In this document: positions 1,358 through 32,906 of the stretch, piece after piece | How positions within the stretch are numbered: position 1 is the first letter of the stretch | Layout of the letters: the number at the start of each line of letters is the position of its first letter | IMG/VR virus record: IMGVR_UViG_3300017991_000191 | Coordinates: 1 to 41,585 of that record | DNA from: a virus | Strand: one strand, 5' to 3' | Length of the DNA stretch: 41,585 bases | Notes under the pieces: model-generated | Told to the model about the DNA's origin: nothing | The model's input: only the letters and a program-made list of their open reading frames with translations | Databases searched by the model: none | Made by a program: the position numbers and the translations under genes

Positions 1358-1387
1358 GTTCCTCCACTAAGGTTTACGAATTGCCCG
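1358..1387 (-). repeat. 30-bp gene-junction repeat, copy 2
   Basis: Identical to 1138-1167. On the minus strand it contains the last codons of the 24-residue membrane peptide, its TAG stop and the GGAGG of the 54-residue gene. Confidence 0.85.
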
Positions 1388-1840: not shown

Positions 1841-1880
1841 GTTTTGGGTTGTATTGAGCCGGTATAGTAGAGGGGAGTGG
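1841..1880 (+). promoter_or_regulatory. Late-arm promoter, copy of 40-bp shared element
   Basis: The element contains GGTTGTATTGAGCCGG then TATAGT (1863-1868) then AGAGGGG. It matches 32 of 40 positions with the minus-strand element at 41316-41355. TATAGT is a good -10, but no normal -35 lies 16-18 nt upstream; the conserved part is the spacer. This suggests an activator-dependent or phage-specific promoter. It precedes the whole rightward structural arm. Confidence 0.6.
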
Positions 1881-1954: not shown

Positions 1955-2344
1955 ATGGGTGACATGTTTTTGAGCGATAATGTAGGCCGTCGTGTGCCTC
2001 CACATGTTCATGCGTGCGCACCTGTGGCTGCGAGTGGGGTCACGTTGACAGATGCGGCGACGGGTGGGGATCATACTCAGACAGTTGTGGGCGGTGCGAC
2101 GTATGCGTTTACCTGTCTGCCGAATATCGCGGATCAGGGGACGGAGATGGATGACACATTCGTTTTTGGACTGGCTGATGCGACGGCTGAGGCGAATCAG
2201 ATTTGGATTTGTCCGCCGTATCAGACCATCATCATTCAAGTGCCGGTAGGAACGACTTCGTTGCACTATCAGAGCCTCGCGAACGGCGGGTCTGGTAAAT
2301 TGAGACGGATTCATCAGTCGAATAATACATATGACACTCCGTAA
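1955..2344 (+). CDS. Hypothetical protein, first gene of late arm (129 aa)
   Basis: ATG at 1955 follows GGGAG with 7 nt spacing, and the stop overlaps the next start as TAATG. The protein is rich in Gly, Thr, Ala and beta-branched residues, with segments such as TYAFTCLPNIAD, FVFGLADATAEANQIWICPP and TIIIQVPVGTTSLHY. This looks like a small beta-rich, virion-type fold. No signal peptide or membrane segment is present. I do not recognise the family. Its place as the first late gene, ahead of the packaging genes, would suit a minor head or decoration protein, but this is inference. Confidence 0.75.
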   Translation: MGDMFLSDNVGRRVPPHVHACAPVAASGVTLTDAATGGDHTQTVVGGATYAFTCLPNIADQGTEMDDTFVFGLADATAEANQIWICPPYQTIIIQVPVGTTSLHYQSLANGGSGKLRRIHQSNNTYDTP

Positions 2345-2829
2345 TGGCGCGACGAAAAAAGGGGGAATTGACTAAGTGCTGTACAAAATGTGGCAAGGAA
2401 AAGCCATCAACAGCAGAATATTTTCCAAACAAATATAAGGATCACAAGGTTGTTGGCCTTCAAGCACATTGTAAAGAGTGTAAATCGGCCTATATGAAGG
2501 AGTATTGGGCACGAAATAAGGACAAATGGAAAAGATATAACAAAGAATGGGCGGAAAAAAATCCAGAACGGCACAGAAAAATAGAACGCAGGTCTCGATT
2601 GAAGTGCAGATATGGTATTACAGATAATGAATATCAAGAAATGTATGATGACCAAGAAGGCAAGTGTAAGATTTGTGGCAAGAAAATCTCACACGAAAAG
2701 TTATGCATAGACCATGACCACGAAACAGAGCGCGTACGTGGTTTACTCTGCTATTCATGCAATAATTTTGTTGGACACGTTGAACTAAATGGACATTTGT
2801 TGCCGTTAATTTTTGAGCACATAGAATAA
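2344..2829 (+). CDS. Endonuclease VII-like (HNH superfamily) nuclease
   Basis: The 161-residue protein has an N-terminal zinc knuckle pair (C13/C16 and C43/C46), a Lys/Trp/Glu-rich middle helix (about 50-90), then the recombination endonuclease VII signature: CKIC (108-111), IDHDHET (122-128) and CYSC (136-139). In this family the DHDH histidines and aspartates bind metal, and the enzyme cuts branched or specific DNA. The gene overlaps its neighbour upstream as TAATG and ends one base before the next ATG. It is clearly more AT-rich than the structural genes, and its first residues (RRKKGELTK) reappear at the start of the next gene with different codons. That pattern suggests acquisition as a free-standing homing endonuclease. 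Confidence 0.85.
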   Translation: MARRKKGELTKCCTKCGKEKPSTAEYFPNKYKDHKVVGLQAHCKECKSAYMKEYWARNKDKWKRYNKEWAEKNPERHRKIERRSRLKCRYGITDNEYQEMYDDQEGKCKICGKKISHEKLCIDHDHETERVRGLLCYSCNNFVGHVELNGHLLPLIFEHIE

Positions 2830-3264
2830 ATGGCGAAAAGAAGAAAAAAAGGCGAACTAACAAAATTAGGCGAACGAATTGACTTGTTATTGGCTAAATG
2901 GGTCAAGAAACGTGACAAATATACTTGTCTATGGTGTGGATCACATAACAATCTTCATGCAGCGCATATAATTCCAAAACGTGAAGGACATATATATCGG
3001 TGGAATAGCAACAATGTCATTACACTATGCCTTCGTTGTCATCTTGAACGTCTCCATAAAGACCCATTAGCTTTTGCTGAATGGTTCCACGAAGCGTTTC
3101 CGGGCCGATACCGGGCGTTGAAGCTCATCGGTAAGCGGCCCAAGAAGTATTCTGCCGATGAACGAAAGCGAATGATTGAGGAGTTGGAGGATAAGATTCG
3201 TGCCCGCGAAAACGCAAGATCAGGCGACTGCTGCACGCATGGCTCTGGCAGCGAAGAAGGGTAA
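2830..3264 (+). CDS. HNH endonuclease (144 aa)
   Basis: The protein has a classical HNH core: CLWC (33-36), HAAHIIPK (43-50), NNVITLC (61-67) and CLRCH (67-71). This is a zinc-stabilised ββα-metal nuclease fold. HNH proteins next to the terminase are known in many cos-type phages to be needed for end cleavage with the terminase, so a packaging role is plausible; a homing role is the alternative. The first two thirds are AT-rich like the preceding nuclease, and base composition shifts towards the phage average near 3070, suggesting a chimeric origin. The start MAKRRKKGELTK parallels that of the upstream gene. Its end overlaps the next gene by 65 nt. Confidence 0.85.
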   Translation: MAKRRKKGELTKLGERIDLLLAKWVKKRDKYTCLWCGSHNNLHAAHIIPKREGHIYRWNSNNVITLCLRCHLERLHKDPLAFAEWFHEAFPGRYRALKLIGKRPKKYSADERKRMIEELEDKIRARENARSGDCCTHGSGSEEG

Positions 3265-3376
3265 GATACCGGTGTCTAAGTTACAGGGTGCGGCACGATC
3301 TATGTATAAAAGCATGTCGGCGGGAAAGTTGAAGCATTTTACTCATAAAAGCCCATTCAAGGGAGCAAGGAAGTGA
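3200..3376 (+). CDS. Small DUF3008-like protein (58 aa)
   Basis: I place the start at GTG 3200, nine bases after GGAGG, which gives MPAKTQDQATAARMALAAK. An upstream in-frame ATG at 3176 lies deep in the nuclease gene and has no such site. The sequence PAK...Q..A..MALAAKKGKIPVSKLQGAARSMYKSMS resembles the small, Lys/Ala-rich DUF3008-type proteins found in bacteria and phages. Function of that family is unknown. The ending is basic (HKSPFKGARK). It overlaps both neighbours, so it is translated within the packaging-gene cluster. Confidence 0.7.
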   Translation: MPAKTQDQATAARMALAAKKGKIPVSKLQGAARSMYKSMSAGKLKHFTHKSPFKGARK

Positions 3377-3618
3377 AAGCGATAAAAAAGAAGTGGGGAG
3401 ACCCGATTGATCTTGAATGGGTGGATGCAATATCTGAGTCTGGTTGGAAATCATCATCAGAATTGGACAAAACACCGCCAGAATGTCTGTGCAAGACGCG
3501 CGGTTACTTTGTCGGAATGACGGAATGTATGATTATCGTGGCCCACACTATCAGCAGTGGCGAGGTTATTGGAGTGCAGTGGATACCTAAAGGAATGATA
3601 GTGCGGGAGATTACATAA
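3373..3618 (+). CDS. Conserved small phage protein, unknown function (81 aa)
   Basis: The start is GTG at 3373, overlapping the previous stop as GTGA, and the stop overlaps the next ATG as TAATG. The protein contains IDLEWVDAISESGWKS, a Cys pair (PPECLCKTRGYFVG) and a hydrophobic strand (CMIIVAHTI) followed by IGVQWIPKGMI. This pattern of W-D-A..S.GW...E.....C...GYF is familiar from small, uncharacterised phage proteins usually lying near terminase genes. No catalytic motif is visible. Confidence 0.7.
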   Translation: MKAIKKKWGDPIDLEWVDAISESGWKSSSELDKTPPECLCKTRGYFVGMTECMIIVAHTISSGEVIGVQWIPKGMIVREIT

Positions 3619-4016
3619 TGGCGAAGAAAAAGAAAAGCGCAGACAAACCAGATGTCCGACAGCTTGGTCAGAAGTCCAGGGCTGGCAGGATGATGAGTGA
3701 ATTCCTTCGGGCCATCGGTTCGGAAACTACGGAGACCATTCGCCATCCGATTACCGGCAAACGTGAGCTGGTGACGAAGGCTGAAGCAGTAGCCCGGAAG
3801 ATTTGGGAAAAGGCTCTTGGACGTGAGTGGGATTGGGACGAGAAGAAATACATCGAGACTGAAGTTTCATTAAGCTGGATGAAGCTGCTCCTGGAACGGG
3901 TTGAAGGAAAAGCGGGGGGAGAGGAAGCGAGCAATGATACGGCGGTTGTGGATCGGATAAGTGATATTAATCGAGACAGGTTGAATGCGCTGGCTGAAGG
4001 AGATGAGAACGAGTGA
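3618..4016 (+). CDS. Putative terminase small subunit
   Basis: The 132-residue protein lies directly before the large terminase gene and overlaps it by 4 bases. It begins with a basic stretch (MAKKKKSADKPD), then ITGKRELVTKAEAVARKIWEKALG, a helix-rich segment, and an acidic end (LAEGDENE). Small terminase subunits are short DNA-recognition proteins encoded just upstream of the large subunit, and this size and position fit. No HTH is certain by eye, so the assignment rests mainly on context. Confidence 0.55.
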   Translation: MAKKKKSADKPDVRQLGQKSRAGRMMSEFLRAIGSETTETIRHPITGKRELVTKAEAVARKIWEKALGREWDWDEKKYIETEVSLSWMKLLLERVEGKAGGEEASNDTAVVDRISDINRDRLNALAEGDENE

Positions 4017-5923
4017 TCGGAAAGGGACTTACACAGCACCCTAAACTCGCGGAACCTTTTCCTTCCAGTCGTCGGTTCTGGACGTGCCCAAAAACAGGTC
4101 TCAAAGTCCCGAAACGAAAAGACGAGAATCTGCAATGGCGCGAGAGGACGCTGCGAGCAGCGGACAAAGACCCTATTCTTCGTGCCGACCTCTTGGCCGC
4201 GAGTCGGGATAGCAGCCTCTTTTGGTTGAATCTGTTCGCCTGGACGTACTGGCAGTTTGAGACCGATCCAGAAACCGGCAAGCAAAGACCGGCTCAACAA
4301 ACTCATCAGCCGTTTATTCCTTGGGAATGTCAGGATGAGGCGTGGGAAGCATTCGAGTACGCTTTTGAAAACGGTGAGGATATTCTGGTTGCAAAAAGTC
4401 GAGATATGGGGGCATCTTGGCTGTGTGCATTATTTTGTCATCATAAATGGTTATTTCGGCCCGATTGTCAGATACGCGAGATGTCGCGTAAGGAATTTTA
4501 TGTCGATGGGCCGACATCAGATAGTCTGTTTTGGAAGCATGATTATCTCAATACTTGGTTGCCTTCATGGATGCGGCCCCCTGGTGTGACAGAACGGGGC
4601 ACGAAGAATCGAACAAAATTGCGCATTCATAACGAACTGAACGGTGCGACGATAGCCGGTGAAACGACGGCTAAGCACGCTATGTCCGGTGGTCGGTGTC
4701 AGTTGCTTTTGCTGGATGAGTTCGCCAAGGTTGATAATGGCGAAGAAATTCGAACGGCTACGGCTGATGTGACGCCGTGCCGGATTGTAAATTCAACGCC
4801 TGCGGGCGCTGGTACAGAGTATAGCCGGTGGAAGAACAGCGGCCAGATCACGGTGGTTCCGTTGATGTTCTGGGAGCATCCGGAAAAGGGTTCTGGCCGA
4901 TTTGTGATTCAAGAACAAGATACGAAAAAATATCAGATCAGCTCGCCCTGGCTTGAGAATCAGAAGAAGCGACGGACGCCTAAAGAGATCGCTCAGGAAT
5001 GTTACGCAGAAGATTTAGAGGCTGGTGACACATTCTTCGATACGAGTGAGTTGGATAAGTACATAGCTCTGTACTCAAAAGAGCCAGGTGCACGATTCAA
5101 TATCAAGGTGAAAGACAAGATTGCCGATGCTGATATACCCAACGTCATCAAACGACGGGACCAGAGCTTCTTTAGCATCCGTAAGGCGTCGAATGGCAAT
5201 CTCGAAGTCTGGGTTGATCTCATTGATGGACGACCGGATCAGGTCAACACCTACATTTTCGGAATTGACACTTCAACAGGTCGAGGAGCTTCTGAATCGG
5301 TCGTGTCGATCAAATGCAAGCAGACCGGCGAAATCATAGCGAAGTGGAAATCGCGGACAACGAGGCCGGATCAGTTTGCTAAGATAATCATCGCTCTGGC
5401 CGTTTGGTGCGGAGGGTCAAACGGTCAGAAATTGCCGTTTTTGAAGTGGGAGAAGAATGGTCCTGGATTGGACTTGGGTAAGCGACTGGTTAAGGAGCTG
5501 AAATATCCTTATTATTATAAGTCTGAACAAGAAGGGATCGTAGGCGAGAAGAAAACGGATAAATATGGTTGGCATTCGAGCCGCGATAGTAAAGAACTAT
5601 TGTTGCGGGCGTATGAGCGAGCGTTGTATCAAGGACGGATCATCAATCACGATAAACGTGGTCTGGAACAGGCGAAATACTATATTTATTATCCAGGTGG
5701 CGGGGTAGGACCGGCTGAATTGCAGGATAAAAAGGCAGCCGAGATGCTTCTCCACGGTGACATTGTGATTGCCGATGCTCTTACGGTAGATGACAGAGAT
5801 GTAGCGAGGCCAAAGAAAGTCGGGGTGAAAGCGCCCTGGAATAGCTGGGGGGCGAGATATGAGGATTGGAAGCGGAAGAAACAACGAACAAAAGGTTGGC
5901 GAAAAAAATACGATTTTCGTTGA
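4013..5923 (+). CDS. terL: Terminase large subunit (packaging ATPase-nuclease)
   Basis: The start is GTG at 4013, overlapping the previous TGA. This 636-residue protein has the expected two-domain plan. The ATPase domain carries a degenerate Walker A, VAKSRDMGAS (126-135), and Walker B, LLLLDEF (231-237). Motif III is probably VNSTPAGAG (259-267). The C-terminal RNase H-like nuclease starts at YIFGIDTSTGRGASE (D419), with further acidic residues near DIVIADALTVDD. Size is normal for the family. It pumps DNA into the prohead through the portal encoded next, and cuts the concatemer. The C-terminus is basic (RKKQRTKGWRKKYDFR). Confidence 0.95.
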   Translation: MIGKGLTQHPKLAEPFPSSRRFWTCPKTGLKVPKRKDENLQWRERTLRAADKDPILRADLLAASRDSSLFWLNLFAWTYWQFETDPETGKQRPAQQTHQPFIPWECQDEAWEAFEYAFENGEDILVAKSRDMGASWLCALFCHHKWLFRPDCQIREMSRKEFYVDGPTSDSLFWKHDYLNTWLPSWMRPPGVTERGTKNRTKLRIHNELNGATIAGETTAKHAMSGGRCQLLLLDEFAKVDNGEEIRTATADVTPCRIVNSTPAGAGTEYSRWKNSGQITVVPLMFWEHPEKGSGRFVIQEQDTKKYQISSPWLENQKKRRTPKEIAQECYAEDLEAGDTFFDTSELDKYIALYSKEPGARFNIKVKDKIADADIPNVIKRRDQSFFSIRKASNGNLEVWVDLIDGRPDQVNTYIFGIDTSTGRGASESVVSIKCKQTGEIIAKWKSRTTRPDQFAKIIIALAVWCGGSNGQKLPFLKWEKNGPGLDLGKRLVKELKYPYYYKSEQEGIVGEKKTDKYGWHSSRDSKELLLRAYERALYQGRIINHDKRGLEQAKYYIYYPGGGVGPAELQDKKAAEMLLHGDIVIADALTVDDRDVARPKKVGVKAPWNSWGARYEDWKRKKQRTKGWRKKYDFR

Positions 5924-5930
5924 GAGATAA

Positions 5931-7751
5931 ATGACAACAGAATTGACAGCGAAAACCCTTAGTGCCGCCGTTAAGGAAGGTTTTGAACGCATGGGTTCGT
6001 ACCGCAAGGCGCGAGCGCGTTTCATCAAAGATTATGTCGGCACATATATGAGCAAAACCCACGGCATTACTGGTGAGGCCCCGATCAATTTAGTGTTCCT
6101 CGCCATACATGCTTTGGTCCCCAACCTCGTCCAAAAGGAAGGCATGAATAAGGTTGTGACCGATTTCTTGGCTCATAAGGACTACGCAGAATTGTTGGGT
6201 CTTGGACTGAACAAGTTGCAGAAGCAGATGAAGCTGCGCAAAGTTCTACGAGCTGGTCTTGTGGACATGTGTTTTGGGTTTGCAGTCTGGAAAACTTCGA
6301 TAGCCGCCGATGGTATGCTCCTACAAACGGGAGAGGATGAGGACATACCACTCGGCTCTATCTATACCGATTTGGTTAGTCTGGATGATTTTACTTTTGA
6401 CCCCACTACTACTGCTTTTGACAAATCAGCGTTTATGGGTCATCGGATTCGAGTACCGAGACAGATGTTGCTTGACTATGGGTGGAGCAAAAAATCTGTA
6501 GAGAAATTGCCGTCTGCGTCTGAACATCCACATGAAAAACAGTGGGCCAAATCATTGACACAAGAGGCGGCTAAAGCAGACCGGATGTATGATCTTCAGG
6601 ACTATGTATATGTAATAGAAGTGTGCGTTCCAGAAGCTGGGGCTGTAGTTTATATCCCCGATCCCTATCAGCAGACGTTTGAAGATTTCGTACATATTCA
6701 AGAGTATGTGGGTCCGGATGAGGGACCATATACGATTTGTTCGTTGACTCAGCCAGTGCCCGACAATCCGCTCCCTATCGCCCCGGTTGGCGTGTGGCGT
6801 GACTTGAACGATATGGCGAACGAGATTTTCAAGAAGTTTATGAATCAGGCTGAGCGGCAGAAAGATGTGTTGTTGTACCCGCCTGAGTTATCCGACGTGG
6901 CTGAGGCCATACGAACGGCGGCTGATGGGGAATGTATTGCTTGCCCCGATCCCAAGAACATCAATGTTGCGTCATTTGGCGGGCAGAATCCGGACAATGA
7001 GCGCATGATTGATCAATTACGTAGTTGGTTCAATTATATGGCTGGAAATCCGGATCAACTCATGGGCATTGCCACCAGCCAAGCAGATACGGCGACCGAG
7101 TTCCAAGGGCTACAGGCGAATGCGACAGTGCGTATTCAAGACATGCGAGACATGATTGCCGATGCTCATGCGGAGATCAGCGGCAAGCAGGCGTGGTTTT
7201 TGCATACCGATCCTTTGATGTTTAACATGGGGCAGCCAGGCATACCTTTGTTGAAGCGCATTACAGGTGGACAAGAGGTACAAGTGTGGTTGACCCCGGA
7301 ACAGCGAAGAGGCGATTGGCTGGACTATAATTTCGAGATCGTCAAGCGGTCGATGACTGTACTGGAACCGAATGTGCGGGCCAAGCGACTGATGGAATTT
7401 TGCACCAATGTCATTCCATCCGTTACGCAGTCTGCAATGGTGTCGGCTCAGATGGGCATACCGATGAATGTGCCACGAATTCTAATGCAGATAGCGGAGG
7501 AAATGGGCATTGAAGATTCATTACAAGAAGTATTTCAAGACCCGACCTTCGAGAAACGGATGCAGTGGATGATGATGATGGGTCCGCAAGACCAGGGTAA
7601 GGGGCAGTTGGCGGGTGTGATTCAGAATCAGGGGTCTCCGAGTCGAGCCAACATTATGACCCCGCAACAAGACGTGAACCAAACGCAACAGGAACCAGCT
7701 GCAATAGCTCAATCGGCAGCGGGGTTCGGTGGAATGAACTGGCTGAGTTAG
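5931..7751 (+). CDS. Portal protein
   Basis: This 606-residue protein follows terL by 7 nt. It has features typical of podovirus-type portals: an N-terminal helical part (KARARFIKDYVGTYM), a mid region with DDFTFDPTTTAFDKSAFMGHRI, a clip/stem-like segment with PIAPVGVWRDLNDMANEIFKKFMNQ, and DTATEFQGLQANATVRIQDM near the end of the wing. The C-terminal tail is Gln/Met-rich and probably disordered (QGKGQLAGVIQNQG and beyond). Portals form the dodecameric DNA entry channel and bind the terminase. Position between terL and the scaffold/capsid genes supports the call. Confidence 0.9.
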   Translation: MTTELTAKTLSAAVKEGFERMGSYRKARARFIKDYVGTYMSKTHGITGEAPINLVFLAIHALVPNLVQKEGMNKVVTDFLAHKDYAELLGLGLNKLQKQMKLRKVLRAGLVDMCFGFAVWKTSIAADGMLLQTGEDEDIPLGSIYTDLVSLDDFTFDPTTTAFDKSAFMGHRIRVPRQMLLDYGWSKKSVEKLPSASEHPHEKQWAKSLTQEAAKADRMYDLQDYVYVIEVCVPEAGAVVYIPDPYQQTFEDFVHIQEYVGPDEGPYTICSLTQPVPDNPLPIAPVGVWRDLNDMANEIFKKFMNQAERQKDVLLYPPELSDVAEAIRTAADGECIACPDPKNINVASFGGQNPDNERMIDQLRSWFNYMAGNPDQLMGIATSQADTATEFQGLQANATVRIQDMRDMIADAHAEISGKQAWFLHTDPLMFNMGQPGIPLLKRITGGQEVQVWLTPEQRRGDWLDYNFEIVKRSMTVLEPNVRAKRLMEFCTNVIPSVTQSAMVSAQMGIPMNVPRILMQIAEEMGIEDSLQEVFQDPTFEKRMQWMMMMGPQDQGKGQLAGVIQNQGSPSRANIMTPQQDVNQTQQEPAAIAQSAAGFGGMNWLS

Positions 7752-7759
7752 GAGATAGC

Positions 7760-8017
7760 ATGGCGAGCAAAAGTGCTGATGAGATCAAAAATGAATATAT
7801 GCGATATTACCGTTTTGAGCAGGCTCAAGGTACGGACCCAAAGAATATTTTGCCGTTTGGCCGATGGGCAAACGCCAAGTATCCGGGATATAAAGAGCCG
7901 AAGTATGAAAAAGCCAAGAACAAAGCACCTGTAGCTGCGATCAAGCGACAACGCAAAGGCCAGGCATCGGCATTAAAAGGTGCTCTAACAGAAAAAGAAA
8001 TCAAGAAGTACAAGTAG
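7760..8017 (+). CDS. Hypothetical small basic protein (85 aa)
   Basis: ATG at 7760 lies 9 nt after the portal stop with GGAG upstream. The protein contains SADEIKNEYMRYYRFEQAQG, ILPFGRWANAKYPGY and a strongly basic tail (KAKNKAPVAAIKRQRKGQASALKG). I recognise no family. The location among head genes suggests a virion or assembly accessory protein. Confidence 0.75.
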   Translation: MASKSADEIKNEYMRYYRFEQAQGTDPKNILPFGRWANAKYPGYKEPKYEKAKNKAPVAAIKRQRKGQASALKGALTEKEIKKYK

Positions 8018-8028
8018 GGGGATAATGA

Positions 8029-8274
8029 GTGAGAGCGCGTAAGAAACCGGTAGAAATTGAATTCATTCGGTGGACGGGTGAAAACTATGAAGAACTACAG
8101 GATTTTCTTAAATCCGATCTTGAGTGTGTGCATCTTGATCGTGCCGTTTCGATTCGAACGTTAGAAGGATTCATACATGTCTGTGCAGGAGATTATATAA
8201 TTCGCGGAGTACATGGCGAACATTATCCTTGCAAACTAGATATCTTTGAAAAGACATACGATATTCTGGATTAA
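8029..8274 (+). CDS. Conserved phage protein, RKKPVEIE family (81 aa)
   Basis: The start is GTG at 8029, seven bases after GGGGG. An ATG four bases earlier reads only five codons. The protein follows a pattern common in phage genomes: RKKPVEIEFIRWTGEN at the N-terminus, then RTLEGFIHVCAGDYIIRG, and a C-terminus HYPCKLDIFEKTY. This family is widespread, small and of unknown function. The sequence is complete and conventional. Confidence 0.85.
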   Translation: MRARKKPVEIEFIRWTGENYEELQDFLKSDLECVHLDRAVSIRTLEGFIHVCAGDYIIRGVHGEHYPCKLDIFEKTYDILD

Positions 8275-8276
8275 AC

Positions 8277-8651
8277 ATGCCGACATATTGTTTCTTTTGC
8301 AAGGAATGCGGACACTACACGGAGGAGCTTTTAGCGGCAACGGCTGACAAACGTTGCACCTGTGAATGCGGCAATGAGATGACGCGAGACTTTGGGGCAG
8401 AGCGGGCCAATATTGGAGATTGCGATTATCGCAAACCGATTCACAGTGATGCGCTGGCGATAAATCCAGAGCAGATTCCAGAACATCGAAGATTGTTCCC
8501 GGACATCAACGTTGACAAAGAGGGGCGTCCAATTTTCGATTCATACAAGAAGCATGATTCGTATTTGCAGAAAATTGGGGCGGTAAAACACAAGGGCAAA
8601 CCGAAGCGTCGGGGGCGAAAGATAGAGACAACTCGGACGAAAAAGAAGTAG
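8277..8651 (+). CDS. FmdB-like zinc-ribbon protein (124 aa)
   Basis: The N-terminus is a zinc ribbon: CFFCKECG (5-12) then CTCECG about 18 residues on, the pattern of FmdB-type putative regulatory proteins. It is followed by MTRDFGAERANIGDCDYRKPIHSDALAINPEQIPEH, typical of the phage version, and a basic Lys/Arg-rich end (KPKRRGRKIETTRTKKK). It lies between portal and scaffold genes, where such proteins are common. The role is unknown. Confidence 0.8.
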   Translation: MPTYCFFCKECGHYTEELLAATADKRCTCECGNEMTRDFGAERANIGDCDYRKPIHSDALAINPEQIPEHRRLFPDINVDKEGRPIFDSYKKHDSYLQKIGAVKHKGKPKRRGRKIETTRTKKK

Positions 8652-8658
8652 TCCGGCT

Positions 8659-8685
8659 TACCTCGACTATCTATTATTGGAGGTA
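8659..8685 (+). promoter_or_regulatory. Hairpin that can mask the scaffold ribosome-binding site
   Basis: TACCTC (8659-8664) is the exact complement of GAGGTA (8680-8685), which contains the ribosome-binding site of the scaffold ATG at 8688. A similar arrangement precedes the capsid gene. Translational control is inference. Confidence 0.4.
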
Positions 8686-8687
8686 TC

Positions 8688-9788
8688 ATGGGAGATCGTC
8701 AAGACATGCGCGCTGATAAAAATGCGTATGAATCAAAAGAACTTGAGGACAAAATCGGGGAGCACCTGAGCAAATTTATTGGAGATGGTGATGCGTCTCC
8801 TGCCCCGGAACCTGAGGACAATCACGACTTGGAGACCGATGACACATCTACCCCTGATGAAGATGAAGGTCAGGCAGATGATGATTCGCTTAGCCAAGAC
8901 GATGATGGCGGTGAGGATGATAATTCCACCGATGACTCGGAACCGGAAGCAGACGAAAAACCAGCCATTCCAGATAACGTGTATCGGTCATTGATGCACG
9001 CAGAGTACACTCCGGAAGAGATTTCGGAGTTCTATGAGTCCAATCCAAAAGCGGCTCTGAAGTTGTTTAACAAGGTCCACAAGGACGTGAACAACATGAG
9101 CAAGCAGTTTGCCGAGTTGGGGCGAACGAGGATTGAACTTGAGCGGCAGGAACAAACTACACAGGAGTCGGAAACGACCAAGCAAACGCCTAATCCGGTT
9201 GCCGAAGCGTTGAAAGCTGCTAAAGAGGATGATCCTGATAATCCGCTCATTCCGGTCTTGCAGGCCATTGGAGAGAACCTGCGGACCAATGTGGGCCAGC
9301 CAGCACAACCTGCCAAGCAACAAGTCAATACGCAGGATGATTTGACTCTGGCGACTCAGATTATGGGATTTCTTGGGTCCGATGACATGAAGGACTACAA
9401 GGATTTCTACGGACCAGCCAGGGACGCTAACAACATGCCGACATTCGGTGGGCAGGATTGCACCATGCAACAGCTCACGAATCGACAGGAGTTGGTGAAC
9501 AAAGCTGATGAAATCTGGGTCGGCGCAAAGATGCACGGACGAGAGTTGGCGGTTGGTGAAGCGCTGGAATTGGCACACATGATTTTGACTGAGCCGATTC
9601 GAGAAAAAAAGGTTCGGGAAAGTCTGGTAAAGAATGTGAAGAAGAGGTCAAAGGGCATGACTATTCGACCGGCTGAGAGTAAGACTCTCAAGGCGTCAGA
9701 CGAAGAAGGCAAGCCGTTGACCGAGGAAGAATTGGAAGCAAAAACGGAGGCGAGACTTAAAAAACTGCGATTGAAAGCAGGAGGGTAA
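8688..9788 (+). CDS. Capsid assembly scaffolding protein
   Basis: The 366-residue protein has a very acidic, low-complexity N-terminal third (runs of D/E with S/T/P, about residues 30-85), followed by helical coiled-coil-like regions with Gln/Glu/Lys, and a basic C-terminus (LTEEELEAKTEARLKKLRLKAGG). Acidic-helical composition with a short basic C-terminal helix is typical of podovirus scaffolding proteins. The basic end contacts the capsid protein in known examples. It lies immediately before the major capsid gene, as expected. Confidence 0.85.
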   Translation: MGDRQDMRADKNAYESKELEDKIGEHLSKFIGDGDASPAPEPEDNHDLETDDTSTPDEDEGQADDDSLSQDDDGGEDDNSTDDSEPEADEKPAIPDNVYRSLMHAEYTPEEISEFYESNPKAALKLFNKVHKDVNNMSKQFAELGRTRIELERQEQTTQESETTKQTPNPVAEALKAAKEDDPDNPLIPVLQAIGENLRTNVGQPAQPAKQQVNTQDDLTLATQIMGFLGSDDMKDYKDFYGPARDANNMPTFGGQDCTMQQLTNRQELVNKADEIWVGAKMHGRELAVGEALELAHMILTEPIREKKVRESLVKNVKKRSKGMTIRPAESKTLKASDEEGKPLTEEELEAKTEARLKKLRLKAGG

Positions 9789-9794
9789 GCGCCG

Positions 9795-9812
9795 CCTCCC
9801 TGGAAAAGGAGG
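9795..9812 (+). promoter_or_regulatory. Hairpin masking the capsid gene ribosome-binding site
   Basis: CCTCC (9795-9799) pairs perfectly with GGAGG (9808-9812), the ribosome-binding site 6 nt before GTG 9819, with an 8-nt loop. A G-T pair extends the stem. This could tune capsid translation against the scaffold; it is not followed by a T-tract. Confidence 0.45.
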
Positions 9813-9818
9813 TAGGAA

Positions 9819-10925
9819 GTGGCTGGATATGCAGCGAGTGACTTGCTTGATCTTATTGAAACCACGTTAAATGATCTGCCGGATCAGAAGTTCGAGGTTC
9901 TGTGGGACAATCAAGATTATGAGGCAAGTAGAATCTATCAGAACGACCGAATGGTAATTGACGGTGGCGAGAAGATTCAGCGATTCGTCATGCTGGACAA
10001 CACTGGTAATGCGAGATACCGCAATTACTATGATACGGATGACCCCGCTGTCAGCAATCAGATGGACAGCATCGAGGTTCCCTGGACGCAGCTCGGCACG
10101 AATTATTCGTGGGATCGTCTTGAGATTCAGCATCAGATGAACTCGAAGAAGGGTTTCATTCGGCTGATGAAGGAGCGGCGAGTAGACGGTTTGTGGTCTT
10201 TGGCGGACCTCATTGAGGAACGATTCTGGAAAACTCCGAATACGGCAACTGACACGTTGTACCCTTATGGCGTGCCGTATTACTTGAACATGGTCGATGC
10301 CGATTCGACTACCGACGGTTTTGTGGGTGGTACGATTCGGTATCAAGATGGTAATACTGGAACCAGTTGTGCTGGGATTGATACGGCTACCGTCAGCAAA
10401 TGGAAGAATTACGCCTTTACGTATACTGACATCAACCGGGCGTTTCTGAAGAAAGTTCGGCTGGCGTTTATGTACACGCGATTCAAGGCCCCGTATTTCA
10501 TCAATGATCCCAGCGATAAGCGGGCCATGCAGAAGCGGTTCTATTGCGACTATGACATGGTAGCAGAGCTGATGGATTTTGCCGATGCCAAGGATGATAA
10601 TCACAGTGGCAAAGAAGTACTCGGCAAGATGATTGTGGATGATGGCGCTAATGTTTATCTGAATCGTTTGCCGGTTGTCCCAATTCCGCAGCTTGAGGGT
10701 GACACCGATCCTGAGACCGGTGACGAAACTGATCCATTGTACTGTGTTGATTTCAGTCATTTCATTCCGGTCATACATGACGGCTACTGGATGGAAGAGT
10801 CTGAGCCAATGAGGGACAAGGGACAGCATACGTCGTTTACCGTGTTCCTGGATGGTGCACATAACAACCTGTGTACGAATCGGCGTAAGGCCGGTTTTGT
10901 TGGTCACAAAGCTTTGACGAGCTAA
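9819..10925 (+). CDS. Major capsid protein
   Basis: The start is GTG at 9819 with a strong GGAGG. The 368-residue protein begins MAGYAASDLLDLIETTLNDL and continues with KFEVLWDNQDYEASRIYQNDR, WTQLGTNYSWDRLEIQHQMN and a C-terminal GQHTSFTVFLDGAHNNLC. Size, position directly after the scaffold, and the arrangement of an N-terminal helical arm, long central beta-rich region and conserved end fit an HK97-fold capsid protein of podovirus type. It should be the most abundant virion protein. Its stop is followed by a GC hairpin, which may protect the message. Confidence 0.9.
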   Translation: MAGYAASDLLDLIETTLNDLPDQKFEVLWDNQDYEASRIYQNDRMVIDGGEKIQRFVMLDNTGNARYRNYYDTDDPAVSNQMDSIEVPWTQLGTNYSWDRLEIQHQMNSKKGFIRLMKERRVDGLWSLADLIEERFWKTPNTATDTLYPYGVPYYLNMVDADSTTDGFVGGTIRYQDGNTGTSCAGIDTATVSKWKNYAFTYTDINRAFLKKVRLAFMYTRFKAPYFINDPSDKRAMQKRFYCDYDMVAELMDFADAKDDNHSGKEVLGKMIVDDGANVYLNRLPVVPIPQLEGDTDPETGDETDPLYCVDFSHFIPVIHDGYWMEESEPMRDKGQHTSFTVFLDGAHNNLCTNRRKAGFVGHKALTS

Positions 10926-10937
10926 GAATGATGGTCC

Positions 10938-10954
10938 GGGGGATTTTACCCCCC
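10938..10954 (+). terminator. GC hairpin after the capsid gene, weak terminator or processing site
   Basis: GGGGG (10938-10942), loop ATTTTA, and CCCCC (10949-10953) form a stem directly after the capsid stop. Only two T follow, so termination would be weak; mRNA 3'-end protection is equally possible. Confidence 0.4.
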
Positions 10955-10974
10955 TTGTGATAAGGAGGAAATAA

Positions 10975-11841
10975 ATGGGTGCTGGAATGGTGAGAATGGG
11001 AGCAACTTCGGGTGCCAATTCGCGGGGTCCGAGTCCTATTATCTGGCGCGACTGTCGGGTTTCGACGTTCATTGAGAATCCGGATACTGGGTTCCATAAA
11101 TTTGATGACTTCAAGAACAGCGCGCTGAATCTAAACGCTGCTGGTGCAACTGATTTTGCAACTGGCGTCGGTGATTTGTCCAGTGACATTAACTGGTATA
11201 TCTATTGTGAGTCTGACAAGGTGGCTGATGTCGCTCTGCAACAGGACGATGACGGCGTGTTGCTGCTTCAGACCGATGGTACTGATGCCGATGTGATTGC
11301 TATTACATCTGGCAACAATGCTCAGGGCGTTATTAAGACTCCGGCTGAGGGCAGCCCTGCTAAGAAACTCTGGTTTGAATGTCGAGTAAAGACGAACACT
11401 ATTACCGATGATGACGGTGGTTTCTTTGTTGGTTTGACCCAACCCGGCGAAGCCAAAGATGCTGGTGGTGCTATGGCGGCTGGCGGTGCGTCTCTTAGTG
11501 ACGTGGACTACATCGGCTTTGCCCGATTGTCCGGCGACGGTGATGCATTGAAGTATGCCTATAATGAAGCTACCAGCGGTACGGCTCAGTCAGGTGCGGC
11601 TAAGACGATTGCTGCGGATACGTGGTATCGCCTTGGTTTCTGTGTGCGGGATAACGAGATTCGCTGGTATGTGGATGGCGTAGATGTTGGTGACAGCGCA
11701 GCTATCGACATTTCTCAGTCCAACGCTAATTATCCTGGTTCAACTGACATGGATGCGTTACTCGCATACGTAGCTGAGTCTGGTGCGGCTGATGCAGATG
11801 GTCTGTATATTGATTGGGTCCGCGTAGCCGTGGAGTACTAA
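10975..11841 (+). CDS. LamG/concanavalin A-like virion protein 1 (288 aa)
   Basis: ATG at 10975 follows a strong AAGGAGG. From about residue 40 to the end, the protein has the beta-sandwich pattern of a concanavalin A-like lectin domain: KLWFECRVKTNTITDDDGGFFVGLTQPG, YIGFARLSGDGD, TWYRLGFCVRDNEIRWYVDGVDVGD and YIDWVRVAVEY. The same blocks recur in the gene at 13327-14421, showing paralogy. It sits immediately after the capsid gene, the usual place for head-decoration proteins. A decoration role that binds glycans or capsid surface is the best guess. No catalytic residues of a glucanase are evident. Confidence 0.75.
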   Translation: MGAGMVRMGATSGANSRGPSPIIWRDCRVSTFIENPDTGFHKFDDFKNSALNLNAAGATDFATGVGDLSSDINWYIYCESDKVADVALQQDDDGVLLLQTDGTDADVIAITSGNNAQGVIKTPAEGSPAKKLWFECRVKTNTITDDDGGFFVGLTQPGEAKDAGGAMAAGGASLSDVDYIGFARLSGDGDALKYAYNEATSGTAQSGAAKTIAADTWYRLGFCVRDNEIRWYVDGVDVGDSAAIDISQSNANYPGSTDMDALLAYVAESGAADADGLYIDWVRVAVEY

Positions 11842-11853
11842 GAGTGATTTGAT

Positions 11854-11900
11854 CCCTGCCGGACAAGCTTATTGGCCTCCGGCAGGGTTCTGTTTTCTTT
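11854..11900 (+). terminator. Rho-independent terminator within the late arm
   Basis: CCCTGCCGG (11854-11862) and CCGGCAGGG (11879-11887) form a perfect 9-bp stem followed by TTCTGTTTTCTTT. It lies after the first LamG-like gene and should reduce, not abolish, transcription of downstream tail genes. Confidence 0.85.
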
Positions 11901-11910
11901 AGGGGGAACT

Positions 11911-12057
11911 ATGGTAGACGTCAAACAGGCACATAACACTCTGAGACAAGTTCTACGCAGTTTGAAATTGAATGCCGATGAACACGATGCGCTGCATCAG
12001 TGTCTCGAAGTTCTTTATGCGGCTGCTATGGAGCAGAAGGAAGAGGACAATGGCTGA
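11911..12057 (+). CDS. Small hypothetical protein (48 aa)
   Basis: ATG at 11911 follows AGGGGGA, so I prefer it to the in-frame start at 11872, which lies inside the terminator hairpin. The product begins MVDVKQAHNTLRQVLRSLKL and is almost entirely helical and charged, ending EQKEEDNG. Its last bases overlap the next gene (ATGGCTGA). It is unrecognised, and may be a small assembly chaperone-like or regulatory protein because of its location between decoration and connector genes. Confidence 0.65.
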   Translation: MVDVKQAHNTLRQVLRSLKLNADEHDALHQCLEVLYAAAMEQKEEDNG

Positions 12058-13315
12058 GCCGACATCGGCTTATACGGTACAGGATTTGATCCTGCGGGTA
12101 GCTAAGGCCGCTGGGGTTGCCTATTACGGCAGTTCTGGTACGGGCATAGCCGCCGTGCCAGTAGACGAGCATGACTTAGAACGCTGCTTGGATTGCGTGA
12201 ATGACGGCATCAAGATGTTCATTTCTTCCGCTCCAAAAAACGGTTGGCGGTGGATGCAGCGACTGCAAGAAATAACATTTGGCACAGTTCAAACAACTGG
12301 CACATGTGATTCTGCCGGGGACGCTACGTCACTAATCGACAGCAGCCTTGCCAGCACATATGACACCGATGACGAGATTGTGGGTTACTATGTCTACGAT
12401 ACAACGCAGGAAATTTATGCGGCGGTGACGGCCTATACAGCGGCTACTGGTGATATTACGGTATCGGAATGGCTGGATTATGATGACAATTCTAGTTCAC
12501 TGACTCCGGCCAGCGGTGACAGTTATTCCATCACGGACGTTCAGACCGTTGATGGGGACAAGGCGCGTTATCCGTTGAACCAAGATTTCTTTGGTGAAGT
12601 GTGCGGTGACATTACCTATGTGCCGGACAGCAGTCGGGTTCGAATCTACTGGGTTGGCGAGGATCACATTCGCAGGTTACAAGAAGTCACCGTACTGGAC
12701 AGCTATCCGAACATGGCGGCTGTGCGGCCCTGGCAAAATCGGCGTTGGGAATTGGTAGTCAATCCGTCTCCGAACAGCGCGGATACTGTGACCTTTCATT
12801 ACAAGAAGGGTTTTGCAGCGATGCAGGCAGTGACCGGCGAAGCATCTGCCGGTGACGCTACTTCAATTACGTGCTCGGATATCGCCGACCTTTACCCCGA
12901 CAACTATTTCAATGGCTGGACAGTTTACATTATCGGTGGGACAGGCCGCAAAAGTTATGCTGAAGTGACAGACTATGACGGCGGCACAGGGGCCTTTACT
13001 GTGGCTGATTGGCTGTCGGTCGATGGCTCAGCGGGCGGAACTGATCCGGATGCTACGTCTGAGTTTTTCGTGACCGATGGCACAAGACATCCTGCCGGAC
13101 AACAATTCGATGAGGCCATTCTGTCAGCCTGTCTTGCAAAAGCAGAACTGGAATTTGAGGATTTGCAGGTCGGCTACATGCAGAAATTCCTGCAAGTTGA
13201 TCTGCCGCGTGCCTGGGACATTGATGCGAGAAGTGCCCCTAAGAAATTGGGAAAAATGATGCCCGGTAAGCGCGAGCATCTTGAACGAACGTGGAACGAT
13301 GTTACAATTAGTTAA
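12050..13315 (+). CDS. Head-tail connector/tail adaptor-like protein (421 aa)
   Basis: I place the start at ATG 12050, preceded by GAAGAGG and overlapping the 48-residue gene. The longer frame from 11972 reads through that gene and lacks a site. The N-terminus (AYTVQDLILRVAKAAGV... DLERCLDCVNDGIKMFIS) and the C-terminus (FDEAILSACLAKAELEFEDL, then a helical end) are helical and flank beta-rich insertions that carry two similar units (GTCDSAGDATSLIDSS... and GEASAGDATSITCSD...). This helical/beta arrangement and its gene position suggest a podovirus adaptor such as a tail tubular protein A analogue. The assignment is from architecture, not a clear motif. Confidence 0.55.
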   Translation: MAEPTSAYTVQDLILRVAKAAGVAYYGSSGTGIAAVPVDEHDLERCLDCVNDGIKMFISSAPKNGWRWMQRLQEITFGTVQTTGTCDSAGDATSLIDSSLASTYDTDDEIVGYYVYDTTQEIYAAVTAYTAATGDITVSEWLDYDDNSSSLTPASGDSYSITDVQTVDGDKARYPLNQDFFGEVCGDITYVPDSSRVRIYWVGEDHIRRLQEVTVLDSYPNMAAVRPWQNRRWELVVNPSPNSADTVTFHYKKGFAAMQAVTGEASAGDATSITCSDIADLYPDNYFNGWTVYIIGGTGRKSYAEVTDYDGGTGAFTVADWLSVDGSAGGTDPDATSEFFVTDGTRHPAGQQFDEAILSACLAKAELEFEDLQVGYMQKFLQVDLPRAWDIDARSAPKKLGKMMPGKREHLERTWNDVTIS

Positions 13316-13326
13316 AGGGAGAGACA

Positions 13327-14421
13327 ATGGGATTTCATTCTCACGATCACAAGTTTATGATTGCCGCTCCTGCCGGGGAAGCAGCTCCTCAGACTATCTA
13401 CAAGACTGAGGACGGGATCGTTCTTGCATATGGCACTACGGTTCCGACCGATGCTACGACTGGTTATGCGGAAGGTTGTATTTTTATTCATGTAGATGGA
13501 ACTACTGGAACAGCGGTATATATCAATGAAGGTTCGGACACTTCATGTGATTTTAATGCCGTCATCACCAATGAAAACCTCACTACTATCGTTTCCGGTA
13601 GCAATCTTGTTAGTGAGATCGAATCAACTGAATTGGCTGATACTGCTGCTGGCGCGAGTCCGAGTCCGAACATCTGGAATGCTTGTCCGTGGTTACAGTA
13701 TGCGTTGGGTGCTGACAACGGTCTGACATATTGGAACCATTTTGACGGCAATTACGTCTTGGCTAATAATCAGGCGGCTACGGACCTCGGATTCGGCGTG
13801 GCCGGTTTTACTGGTGCAACCGCTGGTCAAACGATTGCAATGGAGACGGATGAACCTACTGGTGCCATTGTTTTGAATAGTTCAAATGACAATGAAACAA
13901 CTGGTATTTCCATTGGAGGCGGTTTGAACACAGCCGGTCAGTATGTCATTAAGAGCGGCAAGAAGTTTTGGATGGAATGTCGGCTCAAGATGGCGAACAT
14001 TACAGATGCTAAAGCCGGTGTATTTGTCGGTCTGGCTGAAGAGGCTTTGTTGTCTGAAGGCGGGATCATTGCTGATGGCGGCACTCTCACAGACAAAGAC
14101 CTTGTTGGGTTCTGGCGTCTGGAAGGTGACGGTGATAAGATGGACACTTATCACAATACTGCTGGTGGTGGCGAAACTACTGAGATCAAAGCTGACGCCG
14201 TGACATTAGAAGCCGATACGTATATCAAACTCGGCATGTACTTCGACGGCACTACACTGACATTTTATGCCGACGGCGTTGCACTGGCTGATACCGTTGA
14301 CTATGACGCCACTAATTTTCCTAATGGAGAAGAAGCAGCATTCTACATTGTAATCGGTGACGCATCTGATGATGATTTCAGCGTTACCGTTGATTGGGTT
14401 CGTATCGCCCAAGAGATTTAA
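13327..14421 (+). CDS. LamG/concanavalin A-like virion protein 2 (364 aa)
   Basis: ATG at 13327 follows GGGAGAG. The N-terminal third (about 1-95) is a separate beta domain with GYAEGCIFIHVDGTTGTAVYI and NEGSDTSCDFNAVI. The C-terminal two thirds resemble the protein at 10975-11841: KKFWMECRLKMANITDAKAGVFVGL, LVGFWRLEGDGD, TYIKLGMYFDGTTLTFYADG and VTVDWVRIAQEI. The gene is therefore a paralogue with an added N-terminal module, likely another head or tail surface protein. A strong terminator follows its stop. Confidence 0.75.
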   Translation: MGFHSHDHKFMIAAPAGEAAPQTIYKTEDGIVLAYGTTVPTDATTGYAEGCIFIHVDGTTGTAVYINEGSDTSCDFNAVITNENLTTIVSGSNLVSEIESTELADTAAGASPSPNIWNACPWLQYALGADNGLTYWNHFDGNYVLANNQAATDLGFGVAGFTGATAGQTIAMETDEPTGAIVLNSSNDNETTGISIGGGLNTAGQYVIKSGKKFWMECRLKMANITDAKAGVFVGLAEEALLSEGGIIADGGTLTDKDLVGFWRLEGDGDKMDTYHNTAGGGETTEIKADAVTLEADTYIKLGMYFDGTTLTFYADGVALADTVDYDATNFPNGEEAAFYIVIGDASDDDFSVTVDWVRIAQEI

Positions 14422-14459
14422 GACCCCCTACGCAGCGTTGTTTTCCGCTGTGGTTTATA

Positions 14460-14501
14460 GCCGGAGAGAGCGCGGAGGACGTTCTCTTCGGCTTTATTTT
14501 T
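14460..14501 (+). terminator. Rho-independent terminator within the late arm
   Basis: GCCGGAGAGA (14460-14469) pairs along all 10 positions (one G-T) with TCTCTTCGGC (14483-14492), followed by TTTATTTTT. It separates the second LamG-like gene from the tail genes. Confidence 0.85.
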
Positions 14502-14510
14502 GGAGTAGAT

Positions 14511-14717
14511 ATGGAGATTTTGTTTCCGTTTCGCGGGTTGAATAAGGGCATTCCTTCGAGCAAGCAACCGATAGATACAGCGCGTGACTTGCAGAATGTG
14601 CGCCCGTTCAAGGATGGGCGTCTGCGCGGAGGGCAGAGACCGGGGTTGAAGAAAGCGAGTGCTACGGAGATGGCCGGGCCAGTGGTGGAGATTGTGACAG
14701 TGACGGTGATTGACTGA
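14511..14717 (+). CDS. N-terminal fragment of a tail protein (68 aa)
   Basis: ATG at 14511 is preceded by TGGAG. The product begins MEILFPFRGLNKGIPSSKQP and continues DTARDLQNVRPFKDGRLRGGQRPGLKK. The FPFRGLNKG and VRP...GRLRGGQRPGL blocks are, from memory of phage proteins, the beginning of a much longer tail protein, not a stand-alone product. The frame ends after VEIVTVTVID with TGATG overlapping the next gene, which begins with a LamG domain. I infer that one ancestral tail gene was split by insertion of the LamG segment and that both parts are still co-translated. Confidence 0.6.
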   Translation: MEILFPFRGLNKGIPSSKQPIDTARDLQNVRPFKDGRLRGGQRPGLKKASATEMAGPVVEIVTVTVID

Positions 14718-16993
14718 TGGCTATTATATTAAACGGGACATCACAGTATCTTAGCCAGACTGCTGTGTTTGGCGCTGGAACTGACCTAAGTGGTTACCCA
14801 TTTACTGTATCTGCCTGGATAAAACCGGCCAATTTAACGGCCAGTCATCCGGTATGCTCAATAGAACGCAGTGATGCCTCCTTCTTTATCGCTATGTTTG
14901 CCCGTGGGTCTGCGGCTGGCGATCCCGCTGCGATTTGGGGATACAATTCTGGCGGATCAAATGGATGGGCGGAAACTTCGTCCGGCTATTCTGCCGGTGT
15001 GTGGCAACATGTTTGCATGGTGTGTGAGAGTGATTCCAAACGCACCATCTACCTAAACGGTGGTTCATCTGGTGAGGATACCACCGATATAGATTATCCT
15101 ATAACCGCTGCACAAGATGGATTTGAAGTTGGGATATGGTCTGCTGATGGTGGGCCAAACGGCTACTTTGAAGGTCGTATCGCTCAGCTTGCCACTTGGG
15201 ATGTGGCACTTTCCGGAGCCAGTATAGCACGTTTAGCTAATGGCGCGGCTCCTACCGTAGTCGAAGATTCCAATTTGCAGAATTATTGGGATTTCGTTTC
15301 TGACGCAACTGATAGTATCGGCGGAGATGATTTAACTCCGACGGGTTCGCCCACTTATGATGATACTGATGAACCAGGCCCGGTTGATACAGCTCCGTCA
15401 GAAAAAATCTCTACGAAGCATATCGTATGTTTTGGTGGTCACAATGTTTACAAAGGCAGTACTCTGGCCGGGTTAGCCGTTGTATCTGATGCGTCCGGGG
15501 ACATGGATACGACGAAGCGATTAGATGCGTTTGATGCCGAACAAAAGGTATTCATTGCCAATCGAGAATATCTCCGAGTCTTGGATTGCGCCAACACGAA
15601 ACTTACGACTGCTGACATCGGGGCCAATCCCCCGGATCGTGGGAACACACTGACCGGGGGGACGAGCGGGGCAACGATGGTGGTGGATTACATCGACGCC
15701 TTGATGGGGGCAACTACGGTCTATGGCTATCGCACTTCAACGGCCACGTTTGTTAATACTGAGACCGTCACTGGAACGGACGACGACAGCAACGCCATAT
15801 CGTTTACATTGAACGCTGATGAAGATGCGCCGGACCATTGGTACACCTGGACAGAATATGGCGGCAGCACAACTAATATGCCAGATCGGGCAACCATCGC
15901 GGCTCATTGGCGAGGTAGGGCGGTTCTGGCGGGGAATAGCTACAACCCAACACAGTTTTGGATGAGTCGGGTGAACAATCCCTGGGACTTTGATGCCGAC
16001 ACTCCGACCAGCAGCGATGCTCTTCGTCCGATTTACGGGGCATTGGGCGATACTGGACGACCGGGGGACGTTATCAAGGCTATCATACCGTTCAACGACA
16101 CCTATCTTATTTGGGCCTGTGGTTCCACCATATATCTCACTGTCGGCGATCCAGCAGCCGGTGGGCAAACAGGCGACATCAAAGGTGTGGGCGGCATCAT
16201 CGACAGCCGTGCCTGGACGTGGGACGATAAGGGCAATCTCTGGATGCTCACTGAGTTTGGTCTGATGCGTGTGCCAAAGGGATTTGGTTCCTTCGAGAAC
16301 ATGACCGAGGACACTTATCCTGATCTCATTGACGATATTGATTTTGATGCAAGTACAGACCGAATCGTCATGCAGTATGACAGCGTGCATCATGGTATTG
16401 TAATCGCCGTTTCGGATGTTAGCAGCGTGGCGAATACCGCAAACTACTTCTATGACCCACGAACAGGCGGACTGTTCAAAGATGCGTGGCCGGATGTGCA
16501 GACTATCTATTCCAGTTGTTACTACGGGTCTGATACCCCTGCGGATCGGCTGACAGTGTTCGGTTGTAGTGATGGCTACCTGCGAACATTCGACGCCGAT
16601 ACCAAGAACGATGACGGCACGGCCATCAACAGCTATGTTGATTATGGACCGATTCCGTTGGGGGACGGGCAGGATCGAGAGGGCATTATCCACGCCATCA
16701 AGGCGGAGTTGGGCGGCGGATCATCTGGCGGCTCTGAAACCGACTCTGACGATTTGTCCTACAAAATATGGGTTGGTTCGTCTGCCGATGGGGTGGTGGA
16801 AAAATTATACGCCAACACGACGCCAAACATTGCCGGGACATTCAGTTCTCCGGGCAGGCGTAGAGGCGGAGCGAACAAACGGAAGGCAAAGGGGTTGTAC
16901 GGGGGCGTGAAAGTCTACAACACAACTTCAGGTGAAGCGTGGTCACTGGAAAAGATGCTGGTCGATGTGCGACTGGCGGGGAGACGTAAGTAA
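14717..16993 (+). CDS. Tail protein with N-terminal LamG domain (758 aa)
   Basis: ATG at 14717 shares its A with the previous stop. Residues 1-200 form a LamG/pentraxin-like domain: ILNGTSQYLSQT, FTVSAWIKP, GVWQHVCMV, RTIYLNGGSSG, GYFEGRIAQLATWDVALS and LQNYWDF. After a short linker, the rest changes character: HIVCFGGHNVYKGSTLAGLAVV, RVLDCANTKL, DRATIAAHWRGRAVLAGNSYNPTQFWMSR, FNDTYLIWACGSTIYL and DDKGNLWMLTEFGLMRVP, a repeat-rich beta structure suggestive of a propeller. This is a large tail component; the LamG part could bind host glycans. The end is Gly/Arg/Lys-rich. Confidence 0.75.
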   Translation: MAIILNGTSQYLSQTAVFGAGTDLSGYPFTVSAWIKPANLTASHPVCSIERSDASFFIAMFARGSAAGDPAAIWGYNSGGSNGWAETSSGYSAGVWQHVCMVCESDSKRTIYLNGGSSGEDTTDIDYPITAAQDGFEVGIWSADGGPNGYFEGRIAQLATWDVALSGASIARLANGAAPTVVEDSNLQNYWDFVSDATDSIGGDDLTPTGSPTYDDTDEPGPVDTAPSEKISTKHIVCFGGHNVYKGSTLAGLAVVSDASGDMDTTKRLDAFDAEQKVFIANREYLRVLDCANTKLTTADIGANPPDRGNTLTGGTSGATMVVDYIDALMGATTVYGYRTSTATFVNTETVTGTDDDSNAISFTLNADEDAPDHWYTWTEYGGSTTNMPDRATIAAHWRGRAVLAGNSYNPTQFWMSRVNNPWDFDADTPTSSDALRPIYGALGDTGRPGDVIKAIIPFNDTYLIWACGSTIYLTVGDPAAGGQTGDIKGVGGIIDSRAWTWDDKGNLWMLTEFGLMRVPKGFGSFENMTEDTYPDLIDDIDFDASTDRIVMQYDSVHHGIVIAVSDVSSVANTANYFYDPRTGGLFKDAWPDVQTIYSSCYYGSDTPADRLTVFGCSDGYLRTFDADTKNDDGTAINSYVDYGPIPLGDGQDREGIIHAIKAELGGGSSGGSETDSDDLSYKIWVGSSADGVVEKLYANTTPNIAGTFSSPGRRRGGANKRKAKGLYGGVKVYNTTSGEAWSLEKMLVDVRLAGRRK

Positions 16994-17979: not shown

Positions 17980-17982
17980 AAA

Positions 17983-29931: not shown

Positions 29932-30024
29932 GCGATACCTCCTGAAAAAAGATGATGGTCCTCCGTGACCATGTGTCACTCCGTTTGTAGAAAGAAAGGA
30001 GCACTATGATGGGGCAGTTTTTGT

Positions 30025-30849: not shown

Positions 30850-30857
30850 GCACTCTC

Positions 30858-31769: not shown

Positions 31770-31770
31770 A

Positions 31771-32903: not shown

Positions 32904-32906
32904 TTG

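Follow-up and report, generated by a model that had tools for sequence, protein, structure and literature searches.

Matched promoter-like elements head both arms of an uncultured phage genome, one beside a putative HTH regulator gene, and recur with different sequences in related phages

Two copies of a 40-bp element, one before each arm of an uncultured phage genome, are well supported as a real regulatory pair, and related phages carry matched pairs of a different sequence at the same two places. In the window (the whole IMG/VR virus record analyzed here, 41,585 bp), the late-arm copy lies at 1841..1880 (+), with GGTTGTATTGAGCCGG at 1847-1862, TATAGT at 1863-1868 and GAGGGG at 1870-1875. 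The early-arm copy lies at 41316..41355 (-), with GGTTGTGTTCAGCCGG at 41349-41334, TATAGT at 41333-41328 and GAGGGG at 41326-41321. The original prediction had reported this element from 32/40 identities between the two places, and we obtained the same ungapped count; the best-placed 40-mer reaches 33/40, compared with a best 40-mer of 28 among 400 dinucleotide-shuffle pairs of the two leader regions and of 25 among mononucleotide shuffles (n=50). Within a 29-bp core, GGTTGTrTTsAGCCGGTATAGTrGAGGGG, the two copies differ at only 3 positions, and a pattern search of the window that allowed up to 3 mismatches returned exactly two places, both of them the known copies, with none in 100 shuffles. 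TATAGT is preserved in both copies as predicted, but conservation does not peak in GGTTGT-n-TT-n-AGCCGG alone. The strongest run is AGCCGGTATAGT plus GAGGGG, and the conserved unit in the window is the whole of GGTTGTrTTsAGCCGG-TATAGT-r-GAGGGG, extending beyond the upstream block. The two copies are oriented alike with respect to their arms, each pointing into the one that it heads. The early copy ends 32 bp before the start codon of an HTH gene (40935..41288, -), and the start codon of the first late-arm gene (1955..2344, +) is 79 bp past the late copy.

The names early and late are taken from the gene content of the arms only. The late arm (1955..25000, +) contains terminase (4013-5923, +) and portal (5931-7751, +), together with structural and tail genes, in an order that is homologous in relatives. 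Its first gene encodes 129 aa with no assigned function and has homologs near the late-arm start in many relatives. The early or replication arm (26947..41288, -) runs from primase (27736-29979) through Sak4 (31771-32619), exonuclease (32907-34160), PolA (34323-37223), methyltransferase (37583-38482), phosphoesterase (39140-39880) and NT5C (39850-40422), all on the minus strand, to the HTH gene. The record is probably less than the whole genome, since a gene fragment is cut by its right end (41446..41585, -; the translation was identified by eye as an HNH-endonuclease-like C-terminus, and it reads toward the early arm) and since the gap between the two element copies is 2.1 kb with the ends joined, shorter than the 5.6-10.5 kb in relatives. 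The nearest INPHARED phages show terminase matches of only ~22% identity and no match to the HTH protein. A relative is present on one MAG contig labelled Pseudomonadota, which may however be a mis-binned phage contig. As an observation apart from the element, PolA of the window is probably interrupted by an intein, because at 966 aa it is longer than the PolA of relatives (~650-690 aa) and has matches, at residues ~444-658, to LAGLIDADG and to further families in which inteins are known.

The first gene after the early copy had been described as encoding a sigma-region-4-like HTH protein, and this identification holds: the 117-aa product (sigma70 region 4 / LuxR-type) matches phrog_3282, a sigma factor family, at 4.6e-5, with Pfam matches to sigma region 4 and LuxR HTH models only below cut-off. 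A search with this single protein gave no matches and a two-sequence profile matched only two related contigs (G004/G005, in our numbering), while a family HMM has members in about 20 related phages. Among these HTH relatives, those of G034, G030 and G039 are over the Pfam cut-offs for Sigma70_r4 or r4_2, that of G052 is over the TIGR02937 (sigma70-ECF) cut-off (47.6 vs 42.9), and in several the match is to the part of the sigma70-ECF model that covers region 4. PRK06930 ("positive control sigma-like factor") is also among their matches, and the G039 protein matches phrog_836, "late transcriptional activator", at 6e-4. No RinA, ArpU or Ltr model is among the matches listed for 10 HTH relatives. 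An AF2 model of the window protein (pLDDT 80) is a compact helical domain with a GerE/KorA-like HTH, and Foldseek searches with this model yielded short HTH alignments only (GerE, KorA, LiaR), none of them at E<=0.001. Sigma region 2, which binds core polymerase and the -10 element, is absent from the 117-aa window protein, which has the HTH only; therefore it is not a sigma factor by itself. Many of the HTH relatives have two tandem HTHs. Nearly all family members also share a near-invariant C-terminal tail, (M)D-x-x-[IV]-x-x-[KR]F, that ends at the last residue (e.g., window 40935-41288, L166:5986-6366 and L161:17439-17864), with an insertion before the final RF in the window protein. Judged by its sequence, this tail looks like a docking peptide.

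It had been expected that related phages would carry the same element next to the same HTH gene. As far as the sequence goes this was contradicted, as an exact search of IMG/VR did not find the window element in any relative, because the relatives use other sequences; what does recur is a matched pair at the same two places. Relatives were gathered by terminase searches (8, then 80 related contigs), and the two-arm layout is common to those contigs that are long enough. In G004, whose terminase is 73% identical to that of the window, and in its near-twin G005, a different element found de novo, AAAATCCGrGGTTTGAACTTATAT, has exactly two copies, one of them 27 bp upstream of the gene for the HTH homolog and the other at the late-arm head. 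A blind search of the divergent region for inverted matched 32-mers gave pairs in G017 (GACCCCATGATTGCGGGGAACTATAGArGG), G024 (ACCCCCCATACCATACCGGGTTAGTGAGG), G034 (39/40 identical), G032 and G020. For every HTH homolog, we also scanned the preceding 110 bp against the whole of its own genome using 26-mer scores. The best match was on the opposite strand at the late-arm head, with 22-26/26, in the window and in G004, G017, G024, G030, G034, G050, G051 and G056, compared with a median best score of 19-20 for all genes; G037 and G048 have weaker opposite-strand late-arm matches (20/26). An opposite-strand pair with one copy immediately upstream of the HTH homolog and the other ahead of the late arm is thus seen in 8 relatives plus the weaker cases, with G005 and G053, near-copies of G004 and G050, not counted separately.

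Local alignment adds a pair in G054 and suggestive ones in G014 and G039, and a pair in G049 is suggested by eye only. The weak pairs of G032 and G048 (25-26/40) would not stand alone, and in G032 the HTH gene is the second after the early copy. For its matched sites, G020 has sigma70-consensus promoters (TTGACT-17-TATAAT), present as three close copies, and its HTH gene is further away. High scores in G052 (4948) and G054 (27799) arise from same-strand matches that look like coding duplications. Since a sizeable minority of HTH-bearing relatives (G008, G019, G023 and G041) shows no clear pair, the arrangement is common, not universal. A third copy above 29/40 is present in no genome. The late copy of G024 (L117:9804-9876, equal to G024 29804-29876) is accompanied by a third, inverted partial copy at 29/40, which forms a long palindrome.

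Alignment of the copies across genomes was anchored on TATA by eye, and the conservation of TATA is thus partly by construction and the core inflated, the following G and purines being less affected. Identity within pairs, averaged over 12 genomes, is concentrated at -34..+6. The upstream box of ~25 bp is nearly identical within a genome and different between genomes, with no common sequence, and the core TATAG[A/T]GRGG is common across phages, with G at position 0 in 18/22 copies and a purine-rich +2..+6. The form of the -10 varies, TATAGT in the window being a 5/6 match to TATAAT, with A at position 2 and T at position 6, and many relatives having TATAGA or GTTAGT. The conserved block had been judged not to be a usual -35 box, in agreement with a best combined sigma70 score of 7/12 for both window copies. 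A TTGACA-like -35 at 16-18 bp upstream is absent in all 24 aligned copies, which have combined scores of 6-8/12; G020, which does have a -35, was left out of this set. Canonical sigma70 promoters (at least 10/12; TTGACA-17-TATAcT/TATAAT-type) are found in the stretch between the copies in 11/11 other aligned genomes, and those scoring at least 11 are mostly oriented to the early arm. The corresponding stretch of the window, short and probably truncated, has no canonical sigma70 promoter. In G017, G034 and others, the purine run after TATA contains the sole evident ribosome-binding site that the HTH gene has. A sigma70-type start 6-8 nt after TATAGA would thus exclude this site from the mRNA, and initiation at the G of TATAG would retain it in the transcript.

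Boxes that match within genomes and differ between them are expected if one diffusible, changing reader holds both sites, and because of its position the HTH gene is the obvious candidate for this reader. The pattern suggests that the box, as a cis-element, could be evolving together with a trans-factor that the phage encodes. Related boxes, TTAG-NN-CYAAT or CTAAT, are found in one clade whose HTHs are related (G049, G050, G052 and G054), and the boxes of other clades are different; the likeness within that clade could also come from an upstream region inherited from a common ancestor. Across all 66 pairs, box similarity and HTH similarity are not significantly correlated (Spearman 0.18, p 0.14). 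The idea that an HTH reader coordinates both arms gains partial support from the same-polarity element before both arms, the position of the sigma-region-4/LuxR-type HTH gene right behind the early copy, the recurrence of this arrangement beside HTH homologs and the matching of the box within each phage.

We lean slightly toward a model in which host polymerase makes the HTH protein first and putative binding of this protein to the box then activates its own promoter and the late promoter. Binding by the HTH protein, activation rather than repression, the use of host polymerase and the timing are what we infer from sequence comparison. The two copies would be the phage's own promoter class, one heading each arm, and each promoter would consist of a private recognition box (about -34 to -8, counted from the base that follows TATA) and a general start core, TATAG[A/T]GRGG. 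Sigma70 promoters between the copies would allow host polymerase to transcribe immediate-early genes and produce the first HTH protein; this immediate-early stretch is seen in relatives and would be mostly missing from the window. The HTH protein would most likely bind the private box and recruit host RNA polymerase in place of the -35 contact. Acting at both promoters, it would amplify its own arm and switch on the structural arm.

The same pair and the same reader could also operate through repression, with the HTH protein repressing its own gene and the late promoter silent until replication titrates the protein. This is an unlikely reading, although the conserved unit covers the whole start region in the way of promoters blocked at an operator, the repressor KorA is among the closest folds, and some boxes are near-palindromic (e.g., TTAG-NN-CTAA in G054/G052). 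The matched sites of G020, being strong sigma70 promoters, would need repression. Outside G020 the sites lack a -35 and their -10 is irregular, so there would be little promoter to repress without an activator, and repression alone leaves one common core with private boxes unexplained. Promoters used by host polymerase only, alike through recent duplication or recombination and with the HTH gene an incidental neighbor, seem improbable. In such a case the similarity should look like a copied segment, but it ends at about -34/+6, and the ~20 bp upstream of the core are conserved within genomes and not between them, with no -35. Adjacency to the HTH gene recurs in about ten phages, and sigma70 promoters of ordinary anatomy exist nearby in relatives. 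The 5/6 match of the window TATAGT to a -10 and the plain sigma70 promoters of G020 are the points in its favor.

The TATAG-purine start core with a variable upstream recognition block resembles T7/SP6-type promoters. A phage-encoded single-subunit (T7-like) RNA polymerase would place TATA at -4..-1 and start at the following G, a register in which the HTH mRNA retains its ribosome-binding site, and it would fit that the upstream part diverges rapidly while the start core stays constant. We nevertheless regard this as highly improbable, as there is no match over cut-off to PF00940 in 16 records; the record of the window may be incomplete, but the 48-51 kb relatives are also without one. No such polymerase is among the large frames examined, which are PolA, primase, virion proteins or, by inspection, a RecG-like helicase. 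The identity footprint of -34..+6 also reaches further upstream than a T7 promoter, and there are normally two copies per genome. It is more improbable again that the elements are not promoters and represent paired recombination, replication or packaging sites, or an RNA element in two leaders. The inverted pair does flank a segment, and in G004 an integrase-like frame (by inspection) lies between the copies, but fixed polarity, the short distance to the HTH start codon and the TATA plus purine core speak against such sites. An RNA element was rejected because Rfam has no match in the window and the position relative to the start codon differs between early and late copies; several late copies have no start codon at ribosome-binding distance, thus there is no common translational role. 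N4-type hairpin promoters were likewise rejected, by eye, as some boxes can form short hairpins and most cannot.

Under the activator model, the present system would work like T4 MotA, Ltr/RinA and SigO-RsoA. MotA of T4 binds a box 12+/-1 bp from a good -10 and replaces the -35 contact (PMC2988021), and the likeness to MotA/AsiA would consist of a phage activator box in the -35 place, upstream of a -10-like element for host polymerase. The middle promoters of T4 number dozens (58 in the consensus), their -10 is excellent and their MotA box short (PMC2988021), whereas here there are usually exactly two sites with a longer private box, an irregular -10 and an HTH of sigma-region-4/LuxR type. Neither MotA nor AsiA appears in the Pfam/PHROG scans of the listed early-arm proteins. 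In staphylococcal phages, Ltr/RinA activate the late promoter via repeats upstream of a TATA box, and the resemblance is in a small regulator, encoded at the early-region edge, by which packaging and structural genes are turned on through TATA and upstream sites (PMC13123087). Ltr uses several repeats, and its promoter is directly after the regulator gene (PMC13123087), whereas we find a single site before the regulator and one before the opposite arm. Bacillus has two-part sigma factors with a separate region-4 partner, SigO-RsoA (PMC10141391). The region-4 match of several HTH relatives recalls such free-standing or partial sigma-like factors, including Xpf of PBSX, but here region 2 is lacking, many proteins have tandem HTHs and the tail MDxx[IV]xxKF is conserved. 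What sets the present system apart from all of these is that a phage usually has two sites, each in single copy and with a sequence private to that phage; one is self-directed and the other stands at the opposite arm. No description of this two-site arrangement was found among the papers searched, which were open-access only.

A broader and more doubtful reading is that of a phage lineage with private promoter codes, in which a detached sigma-region-4-like protein with a docking tail might redirect host polymerase. It is with the same reserve that we consider usually two matched non-sigma70 promoters per genome whose box and protein would co-diverge between phages. If this is true, these phages would provide a natural set of mutually orthogonal activator-promoter pairs. 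If the proposed regulation is right, one small protein and two matched sites would form a developmental switch in a widespread uncultured phage group. The sites could be read from genomes by comparing the two arm heads, giving regulator targets without cultures, and the diverged regulator-promoter pairs could be used to ask how protein-DNA specificity shifts without breaking a circuit.

Several further observations concern the divergent region and the neighboring genes. In the window, the non-coding divergent region at 290-740 has direct and inverted repeats (CGCGCGCAAA..CAATCCCTTATGTG.CAAGGGTTTGCGCG and mirror copies), a candidate replication origin or regulatory array. Two 43-bp leaders at 1128-1170 and 1348-1390 (-), 91% identical, precede small frames that read toward the early arm. 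They end in CCTTAGTGGAGGAAC, which resembles the element core with a different upstream box, and they are possibly a second promoter class for early genes. In a relative (L003, 300-860), several leader copies containing GCACTATCGCCTA were seen by eye before small early-direction frames, forming a further family of repeated leaders. By inspection, RecG-type helicase-like frames lie beside primase in G017 (L104:13984-15939, +) and G024 (L116:2175-3833, +); alongside Sak4 and PolA, these are unusual phage cargo.
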